Under the pieces are notes generated by a model. The model did no database searches, had not been told where the DNA came from, and saw only the letters and a program-made list of their open reading frames with translations. Both the position numbers and the translations under genes were made by a program. From a virus, in IMG/VR virus record IMGVR_UViG_3300020156_000010, positions 1 through 45,315 of that record: a DNA stretch of 45,315 nucleotides, one strand, 5' to 3'. Of this stretch, positions 1 through 45,315 are shown piece by piece (position 1 is the stretch's first letter; the number at the start of each line of letters is the position of its first letter).

Positions 1-127
1 ATTACAACTGGAAAAAAGATGACCTGTATGAAGTCAGTCAAAAAGAGGCTGACTTATTCTTTTATACCCAAGTCTTGACAGGTGACTCAGTAGACGGTTA
101 TTCAGGCTGTCCTAACATTGGTAAGAA
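1..127. repeat. Terminal duplication, copy 1 (circular assembly overlap)
   Basis: Bases 1-127 are identical to 45189-45315. The repeat lies inside one open reading frame, which continues in frame across the join. The exact length of 127 is a common assembler k-mer size, so this is best read as the overlap left when a circular (or terminally redundant) genome is output as a linear contig, not as the biological direct terminal repeat. Confidence 0.95.
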
Positions 128-3045: not shown

Positions 3046-3062
3046 AGCCCACCATAGAACCA
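3046..3062 (+). promoter_or_regulatory. Putative phage RNA polymerase promoter, copy 1 (virion block)
   Basis: AGCCCACCATAGAACCA. It is one of four near-identical intergenic + strand copies (others at 24214, 28924, 38007). It lies just after the RNR stop and before the small pre-portal gene. It is followed by an AT-rich self-complementary stretch (about 3068-3085) that could form a hairpin at the start of the transcript. Confidence 0.65.
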
Positions 3063-3107
3063 GAGATTAATATATTTAAATATTCCAATATGGAGGTATT
3101 TATTATC

Positions 3108-7868: not shown

Positions 7869-9941
7869 ATGGCACTTGTAAACAAATCCATAGCTGGCCT
7901 GTATAATGGTGTTTCTCAACAAGCTCCTATACTTAGACTTGACTCACAATGTGAGGCACAAGAGAATGCTTTAAGTAGCCTTATAGATGGCCTTATGAAA
8001 AGACCACCTACAGAACTACTAAACAGTATACTTATATCAGGTACATTCTCAAGTAAGACATTATTCAAGATAATGATTTTTGATGATGAACCATTCATTG
8101 TAGCATTTACCAGTAATACTGGTGATAACGAAGTCTGCATAAAAATATATGACAAGTCTGGGATAGAACAAACAATCGAAAATGATACAACATATTCTCC
8201 AGACAATTATTTTGATGCAAATCTTCATCATGATGAGAATGGGTTACTTGATATCTGTGTGTGTCCGTATGAAAAGAATGGTTATCTGATAGCAAATAAG
8301 AATGTTACTGTAGAAAAGTATGGGACACCATCTAATCATACAATAGACTATATATATGCATCTAGAGAAGAACTTGAAACAGCAACAAAAGATGCCTCTG
8401 TAGCTGTTGGTAGTATTGCTGAAATTATTGGAAGTTCATCTAAAAGGACTAGCTATTATCTTATAAGAAAAGATGGATATTGGGAAGAGACAGTTTCTCC
8501 TAGTGTTCAGATACAATTTAACTCAAGAACACTCCCTAGATATCTAATTAGAAGAAACAATTTATTTATTTTAGAAAGACTTACACTACCATCAAGAAGG
8601 ATTGGTGATGATAATACATCACCTTATCCTTCATTTGTCGACAACACTATAAATGATATGTGTTTCTTCAAAGGAAGACTTTGCTTCTTGTCAGATAAAT
8701 CTATATATATGACATTAGTTGTAAGTAGTAACAGTTGGTATGTCTTTCCTCAAACAGCTTTAGATGTTCTTGATTCAGACCCTATAGACATTACTCCTAA
8801 AGATGGTGGAGCAACACCTCTCAAGTATGCTATTCCTTTCCATAGTTCATTAGTTTTGTTTAGTGATGATGAACAATTCATTATCTCTTCAGGTGAGAAC
8901 TTACTTACTCCTAAGACAGTCATTGTTAATCCAACAACTAAATACTCAATCGTACCTAATTGTAGGCCGGAACGTGTAGGTAGTAATATTTATTTCTCAT
9001 GTCCTCAAGGTGATGCTTATAGTGTACGTGAGATGTTTATTCAGCCAGGGACTTTAGTATTTGAAGCTCAAGCAATTACTGAACATGTTGCTAAGTACAT
9101 CAATGCTAAACCTACAGCAATAGTCTCTATCCCTGAATCAAATATGCTTGTAGTACACTCTATAGATCAACCTAAGACACTTTGGATTTATAAGTATTTC
9201 TGGGCTAACAATGAAAGGGTACAAGCAAGTTGGTCTAAATGGACATTTGATGAAGACATCATATCTCTAAAATCTCTAGATAACAAACTCATCATGATAA
9301 ACAAGAATAATAACTCTACCTACAGTCTTGTTCAAATAAACCTGGAAGACACAGACTCAGGAGATTTAGGTTTTAGAGTTCATCTTGATAATCAAATGAA
9401 ACTCATAGGCTCTTATGTGAATAATGAAACATGTTGGATAGGCCCTTTTTCAGACTCATTTGATAAATACACTATAGTAGACCTTTCAACAGGTTTAGAA
9501 ATTCCTATTAGTAGAACAGCTTATGATAATCAAGTGTATGCTGTAGGAGATTATTCAGGAAGACCTTGCATTATCGGTAAGAAGTACACTATGAGATATT
9601 CCTTTACTCCCTGGAGAATAAAGAATCAAGACGGTACTTCTAATCTTCAAGGAAGACTTCAGATAAGAAAGTTAGCACTACATTTTCAGAATACAGGAGT
9701 CTTCAAAGTCTCTATAACACCTCTGAATAGGGATGCTCTTGTTCATGATTATTCTGCAATACAAGCAGGGATAACAGAGTTAGACAAACCAGCATTAGCT
9801 ACAGGAGATGCAGATTTCCTAGTTATGGCTAATGCTGAAGGAACAGCTATTGAAATAATAAATGATGATTACATGCCTTCAAACTTTCAGCAAGCAGAGT
9901 TTGAGGGTTTCTTTGTAACACGTTCTAGAAATGTTGGTTAA
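7869..9941 (+). CDS. Tail tubular protein B (nozzle), T7 gp12-like
   Basis: 690 aa (T7 gp12 is 794). The N-terminus ALVNKSIAGLYNGVSQQAPI and RLDSQCEAQENALSSLIDGL are the standard start of this family; a beta-rich propeller follows, with FKGRLCFLSDKSIYMT and the C-terminal GFFVTRSRNVG typical of gp12. It forms the conical nozzle that carries the fibres. ATG 7869 follows GGAGG (7855-7859). Confidence 0.93.
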   Translation: MALVNKSIAGLYNGVSQQAPILRLDSQCEAQENALSSLIDGLMKRPPTELLNSILISGTFSSKTLFKIMIFDDEPFIVAFTSNTGDNEVCIKIYDKSGIEQTIENDTTYSPDNYFDANLHHDENGLLDICVCPYEKNGYLIANKNVTVEKYGTPSNHTIDYIYASREELETATKDASVAVGSIAEIIGSSSKRTSYYLIRKDGYWEETVSPSVQIQFNSRTLPRYLIRRNNLFILERLTLPSRRIGDDNTSPYPSFVDNTINDMCFFKGRLCFLSDKSIYMTLVVSSNSWYVFPQTALDVLDSDPIDITPKDGGATPLKYAIPFHSSLVLFSDDEQFIISSGENLLTPKTVIVNPTTKYSIVPNCRPERVGSNIYFSCPQGDAYSVREMFIQPGTLVFEAQAITEHVAKYINAKPTAIVSIPESNMLVVHSIDQPKTLWIYKYFWANNERVQASWSKWTFDEDIISLKSLDNKLIMINKNNNSTYSLVQINLEDTDSGDLGFRVHLDNQMKLIGSYVNNETCWIGPFSDSFDKYTIVDLSTGLEIPISRTAYDNQVYAVGDYSGRPCIIGKKYTMRYSFTPWRIKNQDGTSNLQGRLQIRKLALHFQNTGVFKVSITPLNRDALVHDYSAIQAGITELDKPALATGDADFLVMANAEGTAIEIINDDYMPSNFQQAEFEGFFVTRSRNVG

Positions 9942-22284: not shown

Positions 22285-22516
22285 AAATGACACTCGAAGA
22301 GAAGAGAATGAGGCATTACTTTCTGAGATATTTAATGTAGTGCTTAAGAAAATGCTTGCTGATCTCAAAAGTGGTGACTCATTAGACCCTAAACAAGTAG
22401 CAAACATGATTAAACTCTTCAAAGATAATGACATCAACATTGAGGTTAAGTCTGGACAGCCTATTGAGTTACCTGACCTCCCTGAATTTAATACAGATTA
22501 TAGCTGTACAAATTGA
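22277..22516 (+). CDS. Terminase small subunit, T7 gp18-like
   Basis: 79 aa (T7 gp18 is 89). Helical N-terminus (NEALLSEIFNVVLKKMLADL) with LDPKQVANMIKLFKDNDI and an acidic tail. It recognises concatemer DNA for packaging with the large subunit. ATG 22277 after GGGAGGTG. Called mainly on position, size and composition; sequence of this family is weakly conserved. Confidence 0.8.
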   Translation: MAKNDTRREENEALLSEIFNVVLKKMLADLKSGDSLDPKQVANMIKLFKDNDINIEVKSGQPIELPDLPEFNTDYSCTN

Positions 22517-22524
22517 GGGAGATA

Positions 22525-24198
22525 ATGACAACTGAAGACAGACTTAAAAAAGACCTAAGAGTTTTCGTATATGCAATATGGAAACACTTAGGTCTTCCTG
22601 ATCCTACACCAGTTCAGTATGAGATTTGTGAGTATCTACAAAATGGTCCTAAAAGAAAGATGATACAAGCCTTCAGAGGAGTAGGTAAAAGCTGGATTAC
22701 TTCAGCCTACGTTCTTTGGAGGCTTTATTGTAACCCTGAATATAAAGCTCTTGTAGTATCTGCTACAGGAGGTAGGTCTATAGAGTTTAGTACATTCACA
22801 CGAAGACTAATCAATGAAGTACCATTTCTGAAGCACCTTAAAGCAAGGGAATTTCAAAGAGACTCAATACTCTCCTTCGATGTAGGACCTGCAAAGCCAT
22901 CTCAGGCTCCTTCTGTAAAGGCTGGAGGCATATATGGCCAGATAACAGGCTCCAGAGCTACTGAGATTATTGCAGATGACATCGAGATACCTAATAATTC
23001 TGCTACAGAAGATGCTAGAGAGAAACTTGTAAAGGCTTGTATGGAGTTTGAATCTATCATCCTACCTGATATAGGTCAGATTACGTACCTTGGAACACCA
23101 CAGTCAGAGGAGTCTGTCTATAACAAGCTCAGAGAGAAGAATTATGTCTGTAGAATATGGCCTGCAAGGTATCCTTCCCTAGACAATCTCAGTAAATATG
23201 CTGGAGCACTTGCTCCTTCAATAGAGCAGACACTCAGCAAACAACCTGAGATGGTAGGGAAACCAACTGACCCTAAGAGATTTAATGATCTTGATCTTCT
23301 TGAGAGAGAAGGTTCATATGGAAAGTCTGGATTCACTCTTCAGTTCATGCTAGATACCAGCTTGAGTGATGCTGAGAGGTATCCTTTAAAGACATCTGAC
23401 ATCATTGTCATGAGTACCAACATAGATAAGGCTCCTATATCAATCTCTTGGTGTAGCTCTCATGAGAAGGTCTTAAAAGAGCTTAGAAACATTGGTTTTA
23501 CAGGCGATAGATGGTATGGTCCTATGTTCATTGATAAGGATTGGGCTGAATATGAAGGTTCTATAATGGCTGTAGACCCTTCTGGTAGAGGCTCTGATGA
23601 GACTGCTTATGCTGTAGTCAAACAATTACATGGTAATCTCTTTGTTACTGCTGCTGGAGGCTTAAAGGGTGGTTATGATGATGATACTCTTACAGCACTA
23701 GCTACAATAGCAAAAGAACAGAAGATTAACGGAGTCATTGTAGAGGCTAACTTCGGTGATGGAATGTTCAGTAAGATATTTCAACCTATCCTTAATCGTC
23801 ATCATCCTTGTGTTATTGAAGAGATAAGGAACCATACACAAAAGGAAAAGAGAATCATCGACATCCTTGAGCCAGTTCTTAATAGACATCGATTGATAGT
23901 TGATATCGATGTGATTAAGAAGGACCTCAAGAAGACTGATGATAACCCTGTCTACAGTCTCTTCTATCAGTTAACTAGGATTACTAAAGATAGGGGTTCA
24001 CTCAAGCATGATGATATCTTGGATGTCCTAGCAATGGCTGTAGGATACTGGGTAGAATCAATGGCAAGAGATGAATCTAAGGCAGCTATTAACTATAAGA
24101 ATAAATTGCTAGACAAAGAACTACAAGACTTCATGAAACATGCTTTGAGTATCAATACAATCAATACTAAAAAAGATAGATTAAATTGGGTCATTTAG
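22525..24198 (+). CDS. Terminase large subunit, T7 gp19-like
   Basis: 557 aa (T7 gp19 is 586). ATPase: Walker A FRGVGKSW (50-57), Walker B IIADD (148-152). Nuclease domain: VDPSGRGSDE with Asp351, and KHDDILDVLAMA with Asp496, which bind metal. It cuts concatemers and pumps DNA through the portal. ATG 22525 follows GAGGGAG; the TTG at 22513 is a frame extension. It is the last gene of the virion block and, as in T7, the last before the genome end region. Confidence 0.95.
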   Translation: MTTEDRLKKDLRVFVYAIWKHLGLPDPTPVQYEICEYLQNGPKRKMIQAFRGVGKSWITSAYVLWRLYCNPEYKALVVSATGGRSIEFSTFTRRLINEVPFLKHLKAREFQRDSILSFDVGPAKPSQAPSVKAGGIYGQITGSRATEIIADDIEIPNNSATEDAREKLVKACMEFESIILPDIGQITYLGTPQSEESVYNKLREKNYVCRIWPARYPSLDNLSKYAGALAPSIEQTLSKQPEMVGKPTDPKRFNDLDLLEREGSYGKSGFTLQFMLDTSLSDAERYPLKTSDIIVMSTNIDKAPISISWCSSHEKVLKELRNIGFTGDRWYGPMFIDKDWAEYEGSIMAVDPSGRGSDETAYAVVKQLHGNLFVTAAGGLKGGYDDDTLTALATIAKEQKINGVIVEANFGDGMFSKIFQPILNRHHPCVIEEIRNHTQKEKRIIDILEPVLNRHRLIVDIDVIKKDLKKTDDNPVYSLFYQLTRITKDRGSLKHDDILDVLAMAVGYWVESMARDESKAAINYKNKLLDKELQDFMKHALSINTINTKKDRLNWVI

Positions 24199-24213
24199 CA
24201 GGGGTTTTGAAAG

Positions 24214-24230
24214 AGCCCACCATTGAACAG
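24214..24230 (+). promoter_or_regulatory. Putative phage RNA polymerase promoter, copy 2 (after terminase)
   Basis: AGCCCACCATTGAACAG, matching the four-copy consensus at 14 of 17 positions or better. It is 16 bases after the terminase stop and drives towards the gene-poor end region, as does the T7 phiOR promoter near its right end. Confidence 0.6.
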
Positions 24231-24497
24231 AGGGGAGACTAGAGCTATCTCAAGAAGACCTCTCAGAATGAGAAGAGATCTTGAGGAGATGAGTCTAAAA
24301 GATGATACAAGTAGTTCTACAAGTAGATTTATAAATAGATCATTATGATGATAATAAAACTAAATATAAAACTTATAAGAGACTCAGAGAAATGACTTAA
24401 GAAGATATGCTGAAAGCAAAGATATCTTAAGAATAACCTCTGAAGATGTTATAAGTAGGGGATTTTAAAATCATCATTATTAATGATAATCAATTAT

Positions 24498-24573
24498 AAA
24501 GAAGGTTAGATAGTCCACCTTACATATGGTCTTCAAGAGACTCAGGAATATATCTCCCTGACTAGCCTTCTTT
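24498..24573 (+). terminator. Large hairpin in end region, possible late terminator or processing structure
   Basis: AAAGAAGGTTAG (24498-24509) pairs with CTAGCCTTCTTT (24562-24573) with one G-U pair, enclosing 52 bases that contain a smaller stem (TCAGG/CCTGA). The 3' arm ends in TTCTTTAAT, weakly T-rich. It could end late transcription or mark the packaging end. Confidence 0.4.
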
Positions 24574-24628
24574 AATATTCACATTTGGGATAGGTACTGG
24601 GAATAGATGTTGGGAGAAGTGACTGAGA

Positions 24629-24684
24629 GAAGACTTTGAAGAAGGTCAGAGAAAAAGTGGGCTGAAGATGGTCAGATAAGAAGG
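24629..24684 (+). repeat. Imperfect long inverted repeat, left arm
   Basis: About 80% identical to the reverse complement of 25144-25203, including perfect blocks GAAGACTTTGAAG and TCAGATAAGAAGG. Arms are separated by roughly 460 bases. Paired arms flanking a phage end region may help duplicate the terminal repeat during packaging. Confidence 0.6.
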
Positions 24685-24762
24685 GGTCGAGATATTTTTT
24701 CTGAAAAATTTGTAGAGAGATATCGTTGTAGTGATTTGGCAGCTTCCCCCGTAGGGTCTGTC

Positions 24763-24790
24763 TTGACAACTTGGTTAAGTATTCTATGTT
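24763..24790 (+). promoter_or_regulatory. Sigma-70-type promoter candidate, rightward
   Basis: TTGACA (24763-24768), 16 bases, TATGTT (24785-24790). A consensus -35 with a fair -10, in the place of the T7 early host promoters. Reads rightward to the early genes. Confidence 0.5.
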
Positions 24791-24804
24791 AGGAAGGTAT
24801 TATC

Positions 24805-24846
24805 ATGATGAAGATAACCTTATTTATGGCCTTCAGAAACATATAG
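24805..24846 (+). CDS. Possible 13-codon ORF after early promoter
   Basis: MMKITLFMAFRNI. The ATG follows AGGAAGG by the TATTATC leader seen at several starts in this genome and lies about eight bases after the expected transcription start. It may be a leader peptide or a relic. A second frame over the same bases reads as protein too, so the call is weak. Confidence 0.25.
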   Translation: MMKITLFMAFRNI

Positions 24847-25143
24847 ACATGGTATCTACTAAAAGAAATACTTATTATTTTGATTAAGTGATTGTCTAAA
24901 TGTCCTGCTAGATAGGTGTATGCAGTTATTTCCAGTAAAGTTATCAAAGATCCTCTTGAATATTTGTAGTAAGAGTAGTTGTTATGGGTAGGTTCACCTA
25001 AAAATTTTCATTACTTAACTATGTTTATTATTCTATGTTAGAAGATTATATCTGGTCCTTTGCTTGATGGAATATACTTATATCGTAATATTACAATATT
25101 GAGATTTTTAGATACCCTAATTTTTTCAAGCCTTGTTTTTCTG

Positions 25144-25203
25144 ACCTTCTTATCTGATCTTCTTCCATGTCCTTCTTCTCTGATCTCCTTCAAAGTCTTC
25201 TCA
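25144..25203 (-). repeat. Imperfect long inverted repeat, right arm
   Basis: Reverse-complement partner of 24629-24684. It lies just downstream of the leftward gene (beyond its stop at 25238), so leftward transcripts would run into it. Confidence 0.6.
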
Positions 25204-25237
25204 AAGGTCTTCTCTCATTGTCTGCCTCAAAGGTCTC

Positions 25238-25426
25238 TTATATCTCTTTCTCTACCGGCTTCTCTTCAACAGGCTTTCTCAGCATCTTCTCACAAAGCAT
25301 TACTACAGCTTCTACTACGACAGCTAGTCCTATATATCCTAAGAATGATATCTCAATACCTGCTACATTCAATCCGGCTGAAATTGCTGCCATAAGTATA
25401 GGCCATAGCCATTGTATCTTCTTCAT
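25238..25426 (-). CDS. Small membrane protein, the only leftward gene
   Basis: 62 aa from ATG 25426 (MKKIQWLWPILMAAISAGLN), with two hydrophobic stretches (about 5-18 and 24-42: FLGYIGLAVVVEAVVMLC) and a charged, repetitive tail (KPVEEKPVEKEI). On its own strand GAGGAG lies ten bases before the start, and TTGACT/TATATT at 25517-25490 forms a good promoter, which is why I accept it over the + strand frame here. Possible roles are inner-membrane host takeover or superinfection exclusion; not recognised. Confidence 0.6.
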   Translation of the reverse strand: MKKIQWLWPILMAAISAGLNVAGIEISFLGYIGLAVVVEAVVMLCEKMLRKPVEEKPVEKEI

Positions 25427-25489
25427 ATGCTCATAGCTCCTCATCATCATGATAATCAATCATCATAAACACTCATAATCACCATTCGA

Positions 25490-25517
25490 AATATAACTAC
25501 ATTAATGCGTCAGTCAA
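25490..25517 (-). promoter_or_regulatory. Leftward sigma-70-type promoter
   Basis: On the - strand: TTGACT (25517-25512), 16 bases, TATATT (25495-25490). It faces away from the rightward promoter at 25553 and would transcribe the membrane protein gene. Confidence 0.6.
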
Positions 25518-25552
25518 AAGTAAATTCCTGTGAAGAATTTTCAAAATAACTA

Positions 25553-25582
25553 TTGACATATCATGTACTTGTGAATTAAGAT
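25553..25582 (+). promoter_or_regulatory. Rightward early sigma-70-type promoter
   Basis: TTGACA (25553-25558), then TTAAGA/TAAGAT (25576-25582) at 17-18 bases. The next gene starts at 25643. The spacer contains the first copy of a 14-base direct repeat, suggesting operator control. Confidence 0.6.
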
Positions 25583-25613
25583 GCAGACATCGACAAACAA
25601 TGTACTTGTGAAT
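25563..25613 (+). repeat. 14-base direct repeat in early promoter (operator candidate)
   Basis: ATGTACTTGTGAAT occurs exactly at 25563-25576 (between -35 and -10) and 25600-25613 (about +10 to +25), start-to-start 37 bases. Two identical sites placed around a start point are typical of repressor operators. Confidence 0.65.
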
Positions 25614-25642
25614 GATGATGATAGTGAAGGAGATAGATAATC

Positions 25643-27621: not shown

Positions 27622-27673
27622 AAAAGGTCTCCTTAAAAGGACTGTTTGAGAAATCCTTTTTGGAGACCTTTTT
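27622..27673 (+). terminator. Strong Rho-independent terminator
   Basis: AAAAGGTCTCC (27622-27632) pairs perfectly with GGAGACCTTTT (27662-27672), with an inner AAAAGGA/TCCTTTT stem, ending in five T. Separates the regulator unit from the small gene at 27703. Confidence 0.85.
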
Positions 27674-27702
27674 GATTGTTATTTTTTGGAGGACATGCTA
27701 TC

Positions 27703-27846
27703 ATGGGATCAATTACATACGAAAGGCCCTGGACTCCTCCGACCAAAGAAGCATCCAAGACCTTATTCCACACCGCATCTTGTCGGTGTCGCTTTGCTGT
27801 TGATGTTGACAGTATAGCATCCAAAATAAAGAATGACAAGGTGTAG
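27703..27846 (+). CDS. Small basic protein between two terminators, unknown
   Basis: 47 aa: MGSITYERPWTPPTKEASKT then ASCRCRFAVDVDSIASKIKN. ATG 27703 follows GGAGG (27688-27692) by ten bases via GCTATC. Cys-x-Cys and a short basic N-terminal part; no family recognised. It is isolated between a terminator on each side and just before the structured RNA candidate, so its promoter must be local or it depends on read-through. Confidence 0.55.
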   Translation: MGSITYERPWTPPTKEASKTLFHTASCRCRFAVDVDSIASKIKNDKV

Positions 27847-27870
27847 GTGTAGCATTGCTACACTTTTTTA
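27847..27870 (+). terminator. Rho-independent terminator
   Basis: GTGTAGCATTGCTACAC (27847-27863), seven pairs with a three-base loop, then seven T. It isolates the following gene-free stretch from upstream transcription. Confidence 0.85.
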
Positions 27871-28440
27871 TTATAAGAAGTTGTAACAACTGCTTCAGCC
27901 TAGAAAGCTGCCCTGCTCACCACAGGTGTTACAACCGTTAGATGGAGATGCCAAATCACGAAGATAAAAACCGTCCTGGGATGTTTGACATGACTCTACT
28001 GGAAACTGTAGATACAGTTGTGTCTTACAGATGAGGAGGAACAGGGAATATGAGGTGGTAACTCAGCCCGTAAAGCCAGACCGTGAGGGCATAACCCTGT
28101 AAATCGACCGAAAGCCAAGAGCTGGCTCCACACAGTGTAGGTCATCCTCTCTAATCAATAGGGAGGACTCCCTCTGCCTTCAAGCTTCACCTCCAGTGTT
28201 GTGGATAACTTGTTCTACATTTGATTATCAATCATGACATTCTACAAATTCGTCTTCAACCTTGTTGACTGATTGTCCTACTGTCTGTAGAGTAGTAACT
28301 ACAAAGGTAAGCAGTAACCGAACGAAATTGGATGGCGTAGCCAGACGATTGAGAGAGAAAATCGAAAAGGGTAACTTTAGAACAAAGAGAAGATGAACCT
28401 GTAGTAAGAGATGGAAAGAAGCTAGGTAGGAAGGGGTAAG
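27871..28440 (+). ncRNA. Large structured RNA candidate (~570 nt)
   Basis: A gene-free stretch, visibly richer in G and C than nearby spacers and dense in stems. Examples: GTTGTAACA/TGTTACAAC (27880-27888, 27927-27935) enclosing two small hairpins (CAGC/GCTG, CCTG/CAGG) as a closed three-way junction; AACTGT/ACAGTT (28004-28019); TGAG/CTCA (28051-28065); GACC (28079-28082) with GGTC (28140-28143) enclosing AGCCA/TGGCT (28113-28127); TCCTCTCT/AGGGAGGA (28145-28167); TCAAC/GTTGA (28256-28268). Size and location in a phage recall the ROOL and GOLLD classes of large phage RNAs, but I cannot confirm a match. No group I or II intron core, RNase P or tmRNA signature was seen. The + strand is inferred from the flanking terminator and genes. 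Confidence 0.55.
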
Positions 28441-28452
28441 GGAGGGGTTACA

Positions 28453-28917
28453 ATGTTGATGACAATAGCTGAGTGTAGTAAATCTTTGAACATACCTTCA
28501 ACCACACTCCGGTATTGGATTAAAACAAAGAAGATACAATCTCAGTCCGAGATTAGAGAGGGTGAATCTGTTACTGTCGTTGATGATGATGAAGTAAAGG
28601 CTTATGCTACTTCTAAAGTTAGCTACAAAGTTGATGATGATGAAGACGTAATGAATGAGATACCTCCTTCTACAAGTTTAGTTCAAGTAGAGTTTTTGAA
28701 GGAACTTAAGCCTGTCTACGATAGATTGATTGATGCTGAAAGACATGCTGCCGTACAAGATACTGAAAACATGTTCCTTAGAGAAGATCTGAAAGTTGCT
28801 AAAGAAAGAATATTTGAATTGGAGAATGAGGTTGTTAACTTAAGACATAAGTATGAGCATTTATTGAATTCTACAATCAATTTAGGGTTCATAAAGATAA
28901 GAAGACAGAATATTTAA
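28453..28917 (+). CDS. MerR-like helix-turn-helix protein with coiled coil
   Basis: 154 aa. The N-terminal domain MTIAECSKSLNIPSTTLRYW plus IKTKKIQ is a MerR/excisionase-type winged HTH (about residues 3-30). An acidic linker (VDDDEDVMNE) and a long coiled coil (about 90-140, LREDLKVAKERIFELENEV) follow, suggesting dimers. This layout is common in Firmicutes phage regulators. ATG 28453 is seven bases after GGAGG. It follows the structured RNA directly, and GTTACAA at 28447-28453 can pair with TTGTAAC at 27881-27887, which could link the two. Confidence 0.8.
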   Translation: MLMTIAECSKSLNIPSTTLRYWIKTKKIQSQSEIREGESVTVVDDDEVKAYATSKVSYKVDDDEDVMNEIPPSTSLVQVEFLKELKPVYDRLIDAERHAAVQDTENMFLREDLKVAKERIFELENEVVNLRHKYEHLLNSTINLGFIKIRRQNI

Positions 28918-28923
28918 TCTCAC

Positions 28924-28940
28924 AGCCCACCTTAGAACCA
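28924..28940 (+). promoter_or_regulatory. Putative phage RNA polymerase promoter, copy 3 (endolysin block)
   Basis: AGCCCACCTTAGAACCA, identical to the copy at 38007. It sits seven bases after the MerR-like gene stop and about 90 before the endolysin. Confidence 0.68.
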
Positions 28941-28948
28941 AATAAAAC

Positions 28949-29029: not shown

Positions 29030-29743
29030 ATGTCTATAGATAAAGATTTAAAGATTAAACTTATGAATCTTACAGGTAGTTTTGAGACAGGTCAGATAGC
29101 ACCTGATTGTTATGGTCTTGTAGCTGGTAATTATGATGATGAAGGTTTGTCTTGGGGAGTTCTTCAATGGAATTTAGGACAGAAGACTCTACAACCCTTA
29201 TGGTCAGAACTATCTGGAAAGGCTGAAACTAAGGCCATTCTAAAAAGCTACTATCCACATTTTCTGAAGGTTCTCCGTATGGAACATAAACAACAAATGG
29301 CTTGGGCAGAGGCTGTAAGTTACTCTAAAAATAAATCCATCGTGACACAGCCTTGGAGAAACTATCTTAAGAATCTTGGAATGTCTAATGTAGGTCAGGA
29401 AGTACAAATCAAGGCGACTGAAGCATACTTTAGAAAAGCTGAACAAATGGCGTCTGAGTTTGGACTTTCTTCAGAACGTGCTTTGGCTCTGATGTTTGAC
29501 ATTGCAGTCCAGAATGGAAGTATCAAACCAGTTTCCAAAGAAAGGCTGAAGGTGTTCCTTAAGAGTGGTCATCATGATGAACAATCATTATTAATCAAAA
29601 TAGCAGAGGAAGTAGCAAATACATCTTATCCTCAGTGGAGACAGGATGTACTGTCTCGAAAGATGACAATAGCAAAAGGAAAAGGTGTAGTACATGGTCA
29701 TACGTATGACCTTATTAGTGTACCCTTGACAATTCACATGTGA
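29030..29743 (+). CDS. Endolysin, lysozyme-like glycosidase (GH46/chitosanase-like fold)
   Basis: 237 aa. The N-terminus LTGSFETGQIAPDCYGLVAGN then GLSWGVLQWNLGQKTLQPLW is a widespread signature of lysozyme-superfamily hydrolases in Clostridia/Negativicutes and their phages; Glu in SFETG is the likely acid and ALMFDIAVQNGSI a conserved core helix. No signal peptide, so release through a holin is expected; 29788 encodes a candidate. No cell-wall-binding module is evident. Placing lysis genes in the early/middle part resembles T7 gene 3.5. ATG 29030 follows AAAGGAG. Confidence 0.75.
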   Translation: MSIDKDLKIKLMNLTGSFETGQIAPDCYGLVAGNYDDEGLSWGVLQWNLGQKTLQPLWSELSGKAETKAILKSYYPHFLKVLRMEHKQQMAWAEAVSYSKNKSIVTQPWRNYLKNLGMSNVGQEVQIKATEAYFRKAEQMASEFGLSSERALALMFDIAVQNGSIKPVSKERLKVFLKSGHHDEQSLLIKIAEEVANTSYPQWRQDVLSRKMTIAKGKGVVHGHTYDLISVPLTIHM

Positions 29744-38006: not shown

Positions 38007-38023
38007 AGCCCACCTTAGAACCA
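38007..38023 (+). promoter_or_regulatory. Putative phage RNA polymerase promoter, copy 4 (replication block)
   Basis: AGCCCACCTTAGAACCA, identical to the 28924 copy, right after the polymerase gene and 54 bases before the ssDNA-binding protein. The transcript start would form ACCAA/TTGGT as a small hairpin. Confidence 0.68.
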
Positions 38024-38076
38024 ATATGTAAGTTGGTATTAAAAAATCATGATGATGATAAAGGAGAGTAAAAACA

Positions 38077-44762: not shown

Positions 44763-45315
44763 AGAAGGTTCTCTTAATTGATGGGGACCTTCTTCTTCAT
44801 AGATTCAGCAACTCCAACGAGACTGTCTATCAATGGGATGAGGAAACAACAAGTCAAGTTCTAAACTTAGAACAAGCTTACAAAGACCTCACTTCAATGA
44901 TTGATGAGATTAAAGAAGCTACTCATTGTGATGATTATCTCCTATGCCTATCTAATGACCAACCATGTTTCAGATATGATGTGCTACCATCCTACAAGCA
45001 CAATCGACAGAACAAACCTAAACCACCCTTACTAAAGCCGCTTAAAGAGAAAGCTATTGAAACATTACCTTGTAAGACTAAACCTAAGTTAGAAGCTGAT
45101 GATGTCCTTGGAATCATGGGTACCATGAAACCTGGACAGTACATCATAGCTAGTTTGGATAAGGACTTAAATCAGATTCCAGGTAGTCATTACAACTGGA
45201 AAAAAGATGACCTGTATGAAGTCAGTCAAAAAGAGGCTGACTTATTCTTTTATACCCAAGTCTTGACAGGTGACTCAGTAGACGGTTATTCAGGCTGTCC
45301 TAACATTGGTAAGAA
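44759..45315 (+). CDS. 5'-3' exonuclease (FEN family, T7 gp6-like), N-terminal part
   Basis: The 5' part of the gene completed at 128-302. Metal-site features in order: LLIDGDLLLHRFS, RYDVLPSYKHNRQNKPKPP (the arch/basic region), LEADDVLGIMG (EADD) and ASLDKDLNQIPG. ATG 44759 overlaps the MazG stop by four bases. From 45189 on it is the duplicate of bases 1-127. Role and domains are given with the C-terminal part. Confidence 0.93.
   Translation, partial: MKKVLLIDGDLLLHRFSNSNETVYQWDEETTSQVLNLEQAYKDLTSMIDEIKEATHCDDYLLCLSNDQPCFRYDVLPSYKHNRQNKPKPPLLKPLKEKAIETLPCKTKPKLEADDVLGIMGTMKPGQYIIASLDKDLNQIPGSHYNWKKDDLYEVSQKEADLFFYTQVLTGDSVDGYSGCPNIGK
45189..45315. repeat. Terminal duplication, copy 2 (circular assembly overlap)
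   Basis: Exact repeat of 1-127. Removing one copy leaves a 45,188-bp circle in which the exonuclease frame is intact. Confidence 0.95.

Follow-up and report, generated by a model that had tools for sequence, protein, structure and literature searches.

Among described phage RNAs, the closest to the one considered here is EGFOA (Rfam RF02955), which is classed in Rfam as an sRNA gene and reportedly stems from a paper of 2017. A literature search for EGFOA found no paper describing it, the one paper that contains the string "EGFOA" being unrelated, and the family is best regarded as a known but almost unstudied phage RNA family. ROOL and GOLLD, which are likewise non-coding and phage-borne, are larger RNAs often found near tRNA genes (PMC12286853).

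The window in this study is the whole stretch of viral DNA analysed, 45,315 nt in length, and the feature examined within it is the spacer at 27871-28452 (582 nt). An earlier note, made from the letters of this spacer, had read it as a ~570-nt structured RNA of a T7-like phage, resembling ROOL or GOLLD or else a new class, with a possible switch at the start codon of the next gene. The spacer does hold a real structured RNA, but this is a diverged member of EGFOA and not a new giant RNA; the structured non-coding RNA and the T7-like phage survive from that note, whereas the new class, the kinship with ROOL and GOLLD, the length of 570 nt and the switch do not.

Relationship to the EGFOA family

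No Rfam family passes its curated cut-off in the window. When all 4227 models were searched permissively (E<=10), the spacer matched the full length of the EGFOA model (1-108) on the + strand (Table 1) at 24.9 bits, which falls short of the 37.7-bit gathering cut-off of RF02955. The E value of this match is 4e-4 when the single family is searched against the 45-kb record, and 0.037 for 1 kb when all 4227 families are searched.

Relatives were collected by scanning viral contigs with patterns taken from the EGFOA consensus, which gave 10 other distinct EGFOA loci. Those above the cut-off are L004 and its near-copy L006, L005, L007, L008, L013 and L014, and those below it, with their motifs intact, are L011, L012, L015 and L016, scoring 12.5-19.9 bits with the Rfam model. 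The Rfam cut-off thus misses divergent relatives, and because these four motif-bearing loci all score below the window, its sub-threshold score is of the kind expected from a diverged member; the window RNA is claimed here as a diverged EGFOA relative, not as a curated member. Several candidates were discarded, namely a chance match inside a coding region from the first pattern scan (L002), two loci in genome contigs with the same letters to which the EGFOA model gave no match (L009, L010), and L017-L020, which represent one coding family. BLAST of the EGFOA loci against phages and plasmids gave no matches, and a search for relatives by way of the RNA polymerase, the gene at 28453-28917 or the 237-aa protein at 29030-29743 found none in the viral contigs.

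A covariance model (R1) built from six members with the window left out, and with an RNAalifold structure that is imperfect, recovered the window at 21.7 bits (E 0.0024). The invariant motifs CCGUNCURG (27971-27979) and GUAAAGCYAGACC (28070-28082) are present in the window in order and with 0 mismatches, a pair that occurs exactly in 0 of 150 simulated genomes (the best simulated case having 2 mismatches), with the motif wording being partly informed by the window. In the helices P_B, P_D and P_C, which enclose the GUAAAG loop, all window pairs are standard and there are changes on both sides. Taken together, sequence comparison makes it very probable that a divergent EGFOA RNA is encoded here.

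The window RNA shares with RF02955 the motifs ACCGUNCURG and GUAAAGCYAGACC, the helix order P_B/P_D/P_C, the phage setting and the intergenic site. Unlike the consensus, it carries a 5' three-way junction missing from the model and, where CURG would be followed by a short hairpin, an arm of ~60 nt; its first pseudoknot helix is largely different in sequence, with compensation, and its score lies below the cut-off. Among the relatives, L007 and L008 (95-kb viral contigs) share with the window CUGG/CCAG as the second pseudoknot helix and UGGCUCCAYACAGUG at a similar offset, but differ from it in the 5' strand of the closing helix, in their GC-rich RNA and in their unrelated flanking genes.

Table 1. 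Features in and around the spacer, in window coordinates
Feature	Positions	Strand	Basis or remark
Intrinsic terminator of preceding unit	27845-27865	+	9-pair stem then T run
5' domain, 9-bp helix GUUGUAACA x UGUUACAAC around two small hairpins (three-way junction)	27880-27935	+	Single-sequence prediction
5' motif AACCGUUAGANGG	27933-27945	+	Common to EGFOA locus L013 and, as CCGUUAGANGG, L005
Possible 5' strand of closing helix (UGGA..GCCA), partner 28123-28130	27943-27953	+	Read from sequence
EGFOA model match	27954-28102	+	Rfam RF02955, 24.9 bits; R1 finds 27970-28103
Pseudoknot helix 1, 5' strand UCACG	27956-27960	+	Pairs with 28082-28086 CGUGA; 3 pairs changed on both sides vs relatives' CCCAG/CUGGG
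Invariant ACCGUNCURG	27970-27979	+	CUGG 27976-27979 is the 5' strand of pseudoknot helix 2, pairs with 28076-28079 CCAG
Long peripheral arm, replaces short hairpin of EGFOA consensus	27980-28039	+	Alignment insert, folds
Helix P_B, 5' strand ACAGGG	28041-28046	+	Pairs with 28095-28100 CCCUGU
Hairpin P_D, UGAG-loop-CUCA	28051-28065	+	Rfam alignment, pair counts, fold
Helix P_C, GCCC x GGGC with invariant loop GUAAAGCCAGAC	28066-28090	+	Rfam alignment, pair counts
3' motif UGGCUCCAYACAGUG; probable 3' end of RNA	28123-28137	+	Common to L008 and L007, similar offset
Next gene, 154 aa, MerR-like by eye	28453-28917	+	Sequence reading

Conserved core and pseudoknot

With the members placed side by side, CCCAG...ACCGUNCURG is seen to form a strip that folds back and pairs with the hairpin loop GUAAAG-CYAG-AC-CUGGG, and in the window form UCACG...ACCGUCCUGG pairs with the loop GUAAAG-CCAG-AC-CGUGA, so that both pseudoknot helices have their 3' strands in the P_C loop. 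Comparison of the members shows this predicted two-helix pseudoknot sitting atop P_B, P_D and P_C, which together make up the conserved core. Of the nine relatives whose 5' part is complete, three have CUAG/CUAG as the second helix; the other six, like the window, have CUGG/CCAG. The first helix reads UCUCAG/CUGAGA in L016.

For the pseudoknot and P_C segments of 10 sequences, 90.7% of cells pair and both-side changes are found in 10 of 14 pairs; the covariation score was matched by 0 of 500 shuffles, and sliding the partner by 1-3 columns lowers pairing to 20-49%. Once P_B and P_D are included, giving five helices in six sequences, pairing holds in 98.4% of cells and both partners have changed in 16 of the 21 pairs; the score is again reached by 0 of 500 shuffles, and slides collapse pairing to 33-58%. 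The segments were aligned and cut by hand, which biases them towards the structure, because automatic alignment of the members over their full length left the variable arms too poorly aligned for counting pairs. Additionally, the UCACG strand of the window was chosen by complementarity, and a 5-nt match alone would turn up by chance in ~6% of 60-nt stretches, but its distance to ACCGU and the GA that follows it agree with the relatives. The Rfam output leaves the pseudoknot strands unpaired; since a pseudoknot annotation could be present in the Rfam seed without being printed by the program, the pseudoknot is not claimed as new.

Extent of the RNA and its genome setting

The spacer is without a convincing gene, the ORF list holding none longer than 49 aa that lies wholly inside 27871-28452, and it follows a strong terminator, both as first described. 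A second, terminator-like hairpin lies further upstream at 27622-27675, and it was this hairpin that gave a mir-5697 match in the permissive Rfam search, which was rejected. A small ORF of 47 aa (27703-27846, MGSITYERPWTPP...) has a GGAGG ribosome site, and its stop codon overlaps the terminator preceding the RNA. The GC content is 0.44 for 27871-28452 and 0.47 for 27871-28150, compared with 0.385 for the genome and 0.34-0.35 for two other long spacers, which agrees with the composition unlike neighbouring spacers that had been noted.

Folding energy by itself does not show a structured RNA, as the spacer taken as a whole (582 nt) shows no unusual stability (folding z of -1.41 for the + strand, -1.73 for the - strand), and folding windows after ~28250 are little or no better than shuffles; it is from the comparison with EGFOA relatives that the structured RNA is taken to be real. 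The closed three-way junction reported at the 5' end is indeed present in the sequence, with 9 perfect pairs (27880-27888 x 27927-27935) and a predicted energy of -15.3 kcal/mol for this single sequence.

Two flanking motifs, AACCGUUAGANGG and UGGCUCCAYACAGUG, fall outside the Rfam model. For the first, 2 of 100 simulations reach the level of the L013 match and 7 of 100 that of L005; for the second, the figures are 0 of 100 for L008 and 10 of 100 for L007. When L007 and L008 are folded to minimum energy, the downstream motif makes up the 3' side of a helix closing an RNA of ~220-230 nt, and the RNAs of the relatives appear to be 220-320 nt long. On the basis of the flanking motifs and this closing helix, the window RNA is placed at 27943-28130, to which the 5' domain starting at 27880 may also belong. 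No sequences related to 28150-28452 were found, and sequenced phages gave no direct similarity to the spacer or to the gene at 28453-28917. Support therefore reaches 27880-28137 at most, with 27943-28130 best supported, so that of the ~570-nt structured RNA first proposed the structure stands in part, but the supported length is ~190-270 nt.

The assignment to a T7-like phage is confirmed by PHROG matches for RNA polymerase, primase/helicase, head-tail adaptor, major head protein and terminase, and by a DNA polymerase whose identity to the enzymes of T7-like phages reaches 52%. The terminase gene (22513-24198) is the last late gene, from which the RNA would lie in the presumed early region. 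Between the terminase and the first early genes is a 1.4-kb AT-rich stretch with no convincing genes (24199-25642), the largest gap in the genome, which probably holds the genome ends and early promoters. The sequence AGCCCACCTTAGAACCAA occurs at 28924-28941, 38007-38024 and 3046-3063, all on the + strand, with two copies exact and one with 2 mismatches (0.01 expected), and the exact copies precede genes and could be promoters used by the phage's own RNA polymerase. The candidate phage promoter AGCCCACCTTAGAACC has copies at 3046, 28924 and 38007 but none preceding the RNA.

The 154-aa product of the next gene has no Pfam or PHROG match, and no homologue of this gene was recognised beside other EGFOA loci. 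The 237-aa protein encoded after it is 34-38% identical to a peptidoglycan-binding-domain protein which, in the phage collection searched, occurs in only seven Thermus phage records, and may possibly be endolysin-like. The ends of the window (1-127 and 45189-45315) are identical over 127 nt; as this is a usual assembler k-mer length, they probably reflect the circular assembly of a complete genome, and not true terminal repeats.

A probable free-standing RNA and alternative readings

A free-standing, trans-acting RNA is the most likely reading, because of how the RNA is bounded in the relatives. In L013 it has a terminator on either side (8987-8956 and 8633-8607) and the following gene is preceded by a promoter-like site of its own, in L005 a 12/12 extended -10 sigma-70 promoter (8722-8750) and a terminator stand before it, and in L007 and L008 convergent genes come after it. 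The genes adjoining EGFOA loci also differ, and include terminase, DNA polymerase III alpha, ParA and cell-wall hydrolase. By analogy, the window RNA is likely to be free-standing and trans-acting, and not the leader of one gene.

The alternative that fares best, although it is unlikely, is a cis-acting leader, in which the RNA would be the 5' part of the 28453-28917 mRNA and control its translation, for example through alternative pairing of TTGTAAC. The RNA and this gene are on the same strand with no terminator found between them, and most relatives have a same-strand gene <=400 nt away, but the downstream genes of the relatives are unrelated, they are split from the RNA by a terminator and new promoter-like site in L013 and run in the opposite direction in L007 and L008, and ~300 nt of weakly folding, unconserved sequence separates the core of the window RNA from the start codon. 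The switch suggested earlier, between TTGTAAC and GTTACAA at the MerR-like start codon, is a 7-nt match of a kind that finds a chance partner in ~3% of 570-nt stretches, and a second GTTACAA copy lies within the local helix, so that the match carries no weight; the switch was rejected as a chance 7-mer, and in the relatives the RNA appears to be a separate unit before unrelated genes or none.

A DNA-level element, such as a replication origin or a packaging or partition site whose inverted repeats mimic an RNA fold, is improbable. The neighbours of some loci would suit it (terminase in L004 and L012, ParA in L014, RepA_N in L013, DNA polymerase in L005), but compensatory changes keep five helices paired, including a pseudoknot formed within one strand, and the terminators around L013 and the promoter of L005 are like those of an RNA gene. 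Still less probable is a new, large and ornate RNA class of ~570 nt of the ROOL or GOLLD kind, of which the EGFOA match would be a fragment. The spacer is long, and its 5' three-way junction and long arm go beyond the EGFOA model, but past ~28150-28250 neither similar sequence nor unusual folding was found, and the RNAs of the relatives appear to be shorter. The supposed likeness to ROOL and GOLLD fails in the search of all 4227 Rfam models, in which neither the ROOL model nor that of GOLLD (conserved 3' half) matches at E<=10, and a tRNA gene search of the window found none. Chance resemblance within an untranscribed spacer, for which the sub-threshold Rfam score and a folding z of only -1.4 could be cited, is barely credible given that both invariant motifs, five doubly changed helices and two flanking motifs coincide.

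Overall, the locus is probably best explained by a divergent, free-standing and trans-acting EGFOA RNA of ~190-270 nt on the + strand, with a host factor as a possible partner. The predicted RNA would be expressed on its own from the + strand in the presumed early region of this T7-like phage, its UCACG...ACCGUCCUGG strip would fold back into the P_C loop, and the resulting two-helix pseudoknot would display the invariant, unpaired GUAAAG and ACCGU faces, which might meet a host factor, for instance the ribosome or a protein, early in infection. The most economical reading that we infer is of a trans-acting RNA with these two unpaired faces turned to a partner, and binding of a host factor as such is suggested tentatively.

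The EGFOA loci L013 and L014 lie near RepA_N and ParA genes, and plasmid-like or phage-plasmid elements may be further carriers of the family. It is conceivable, if rather speculative, that EGFOA RNAs form a class of free-standing RNAs, 200-300 nt in length and under-modelled, in phages and plasmid-like elements, with a pseudoknotted functional core and perhaps a role in packaging or replication control or at the host translation machinery; the Rfam model would then cover only a 108-nt part and miss divergent members. The current Rfam model does appear to miss part of the family, and the two-helix pseudoknot and likely extent given here offer a better structural hypothesis for a family nearly without literature. 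For the phage itself, an unexplained spacer becomes a testable RNA gene in the apparent early region of a T7-like genome, open to genetics.
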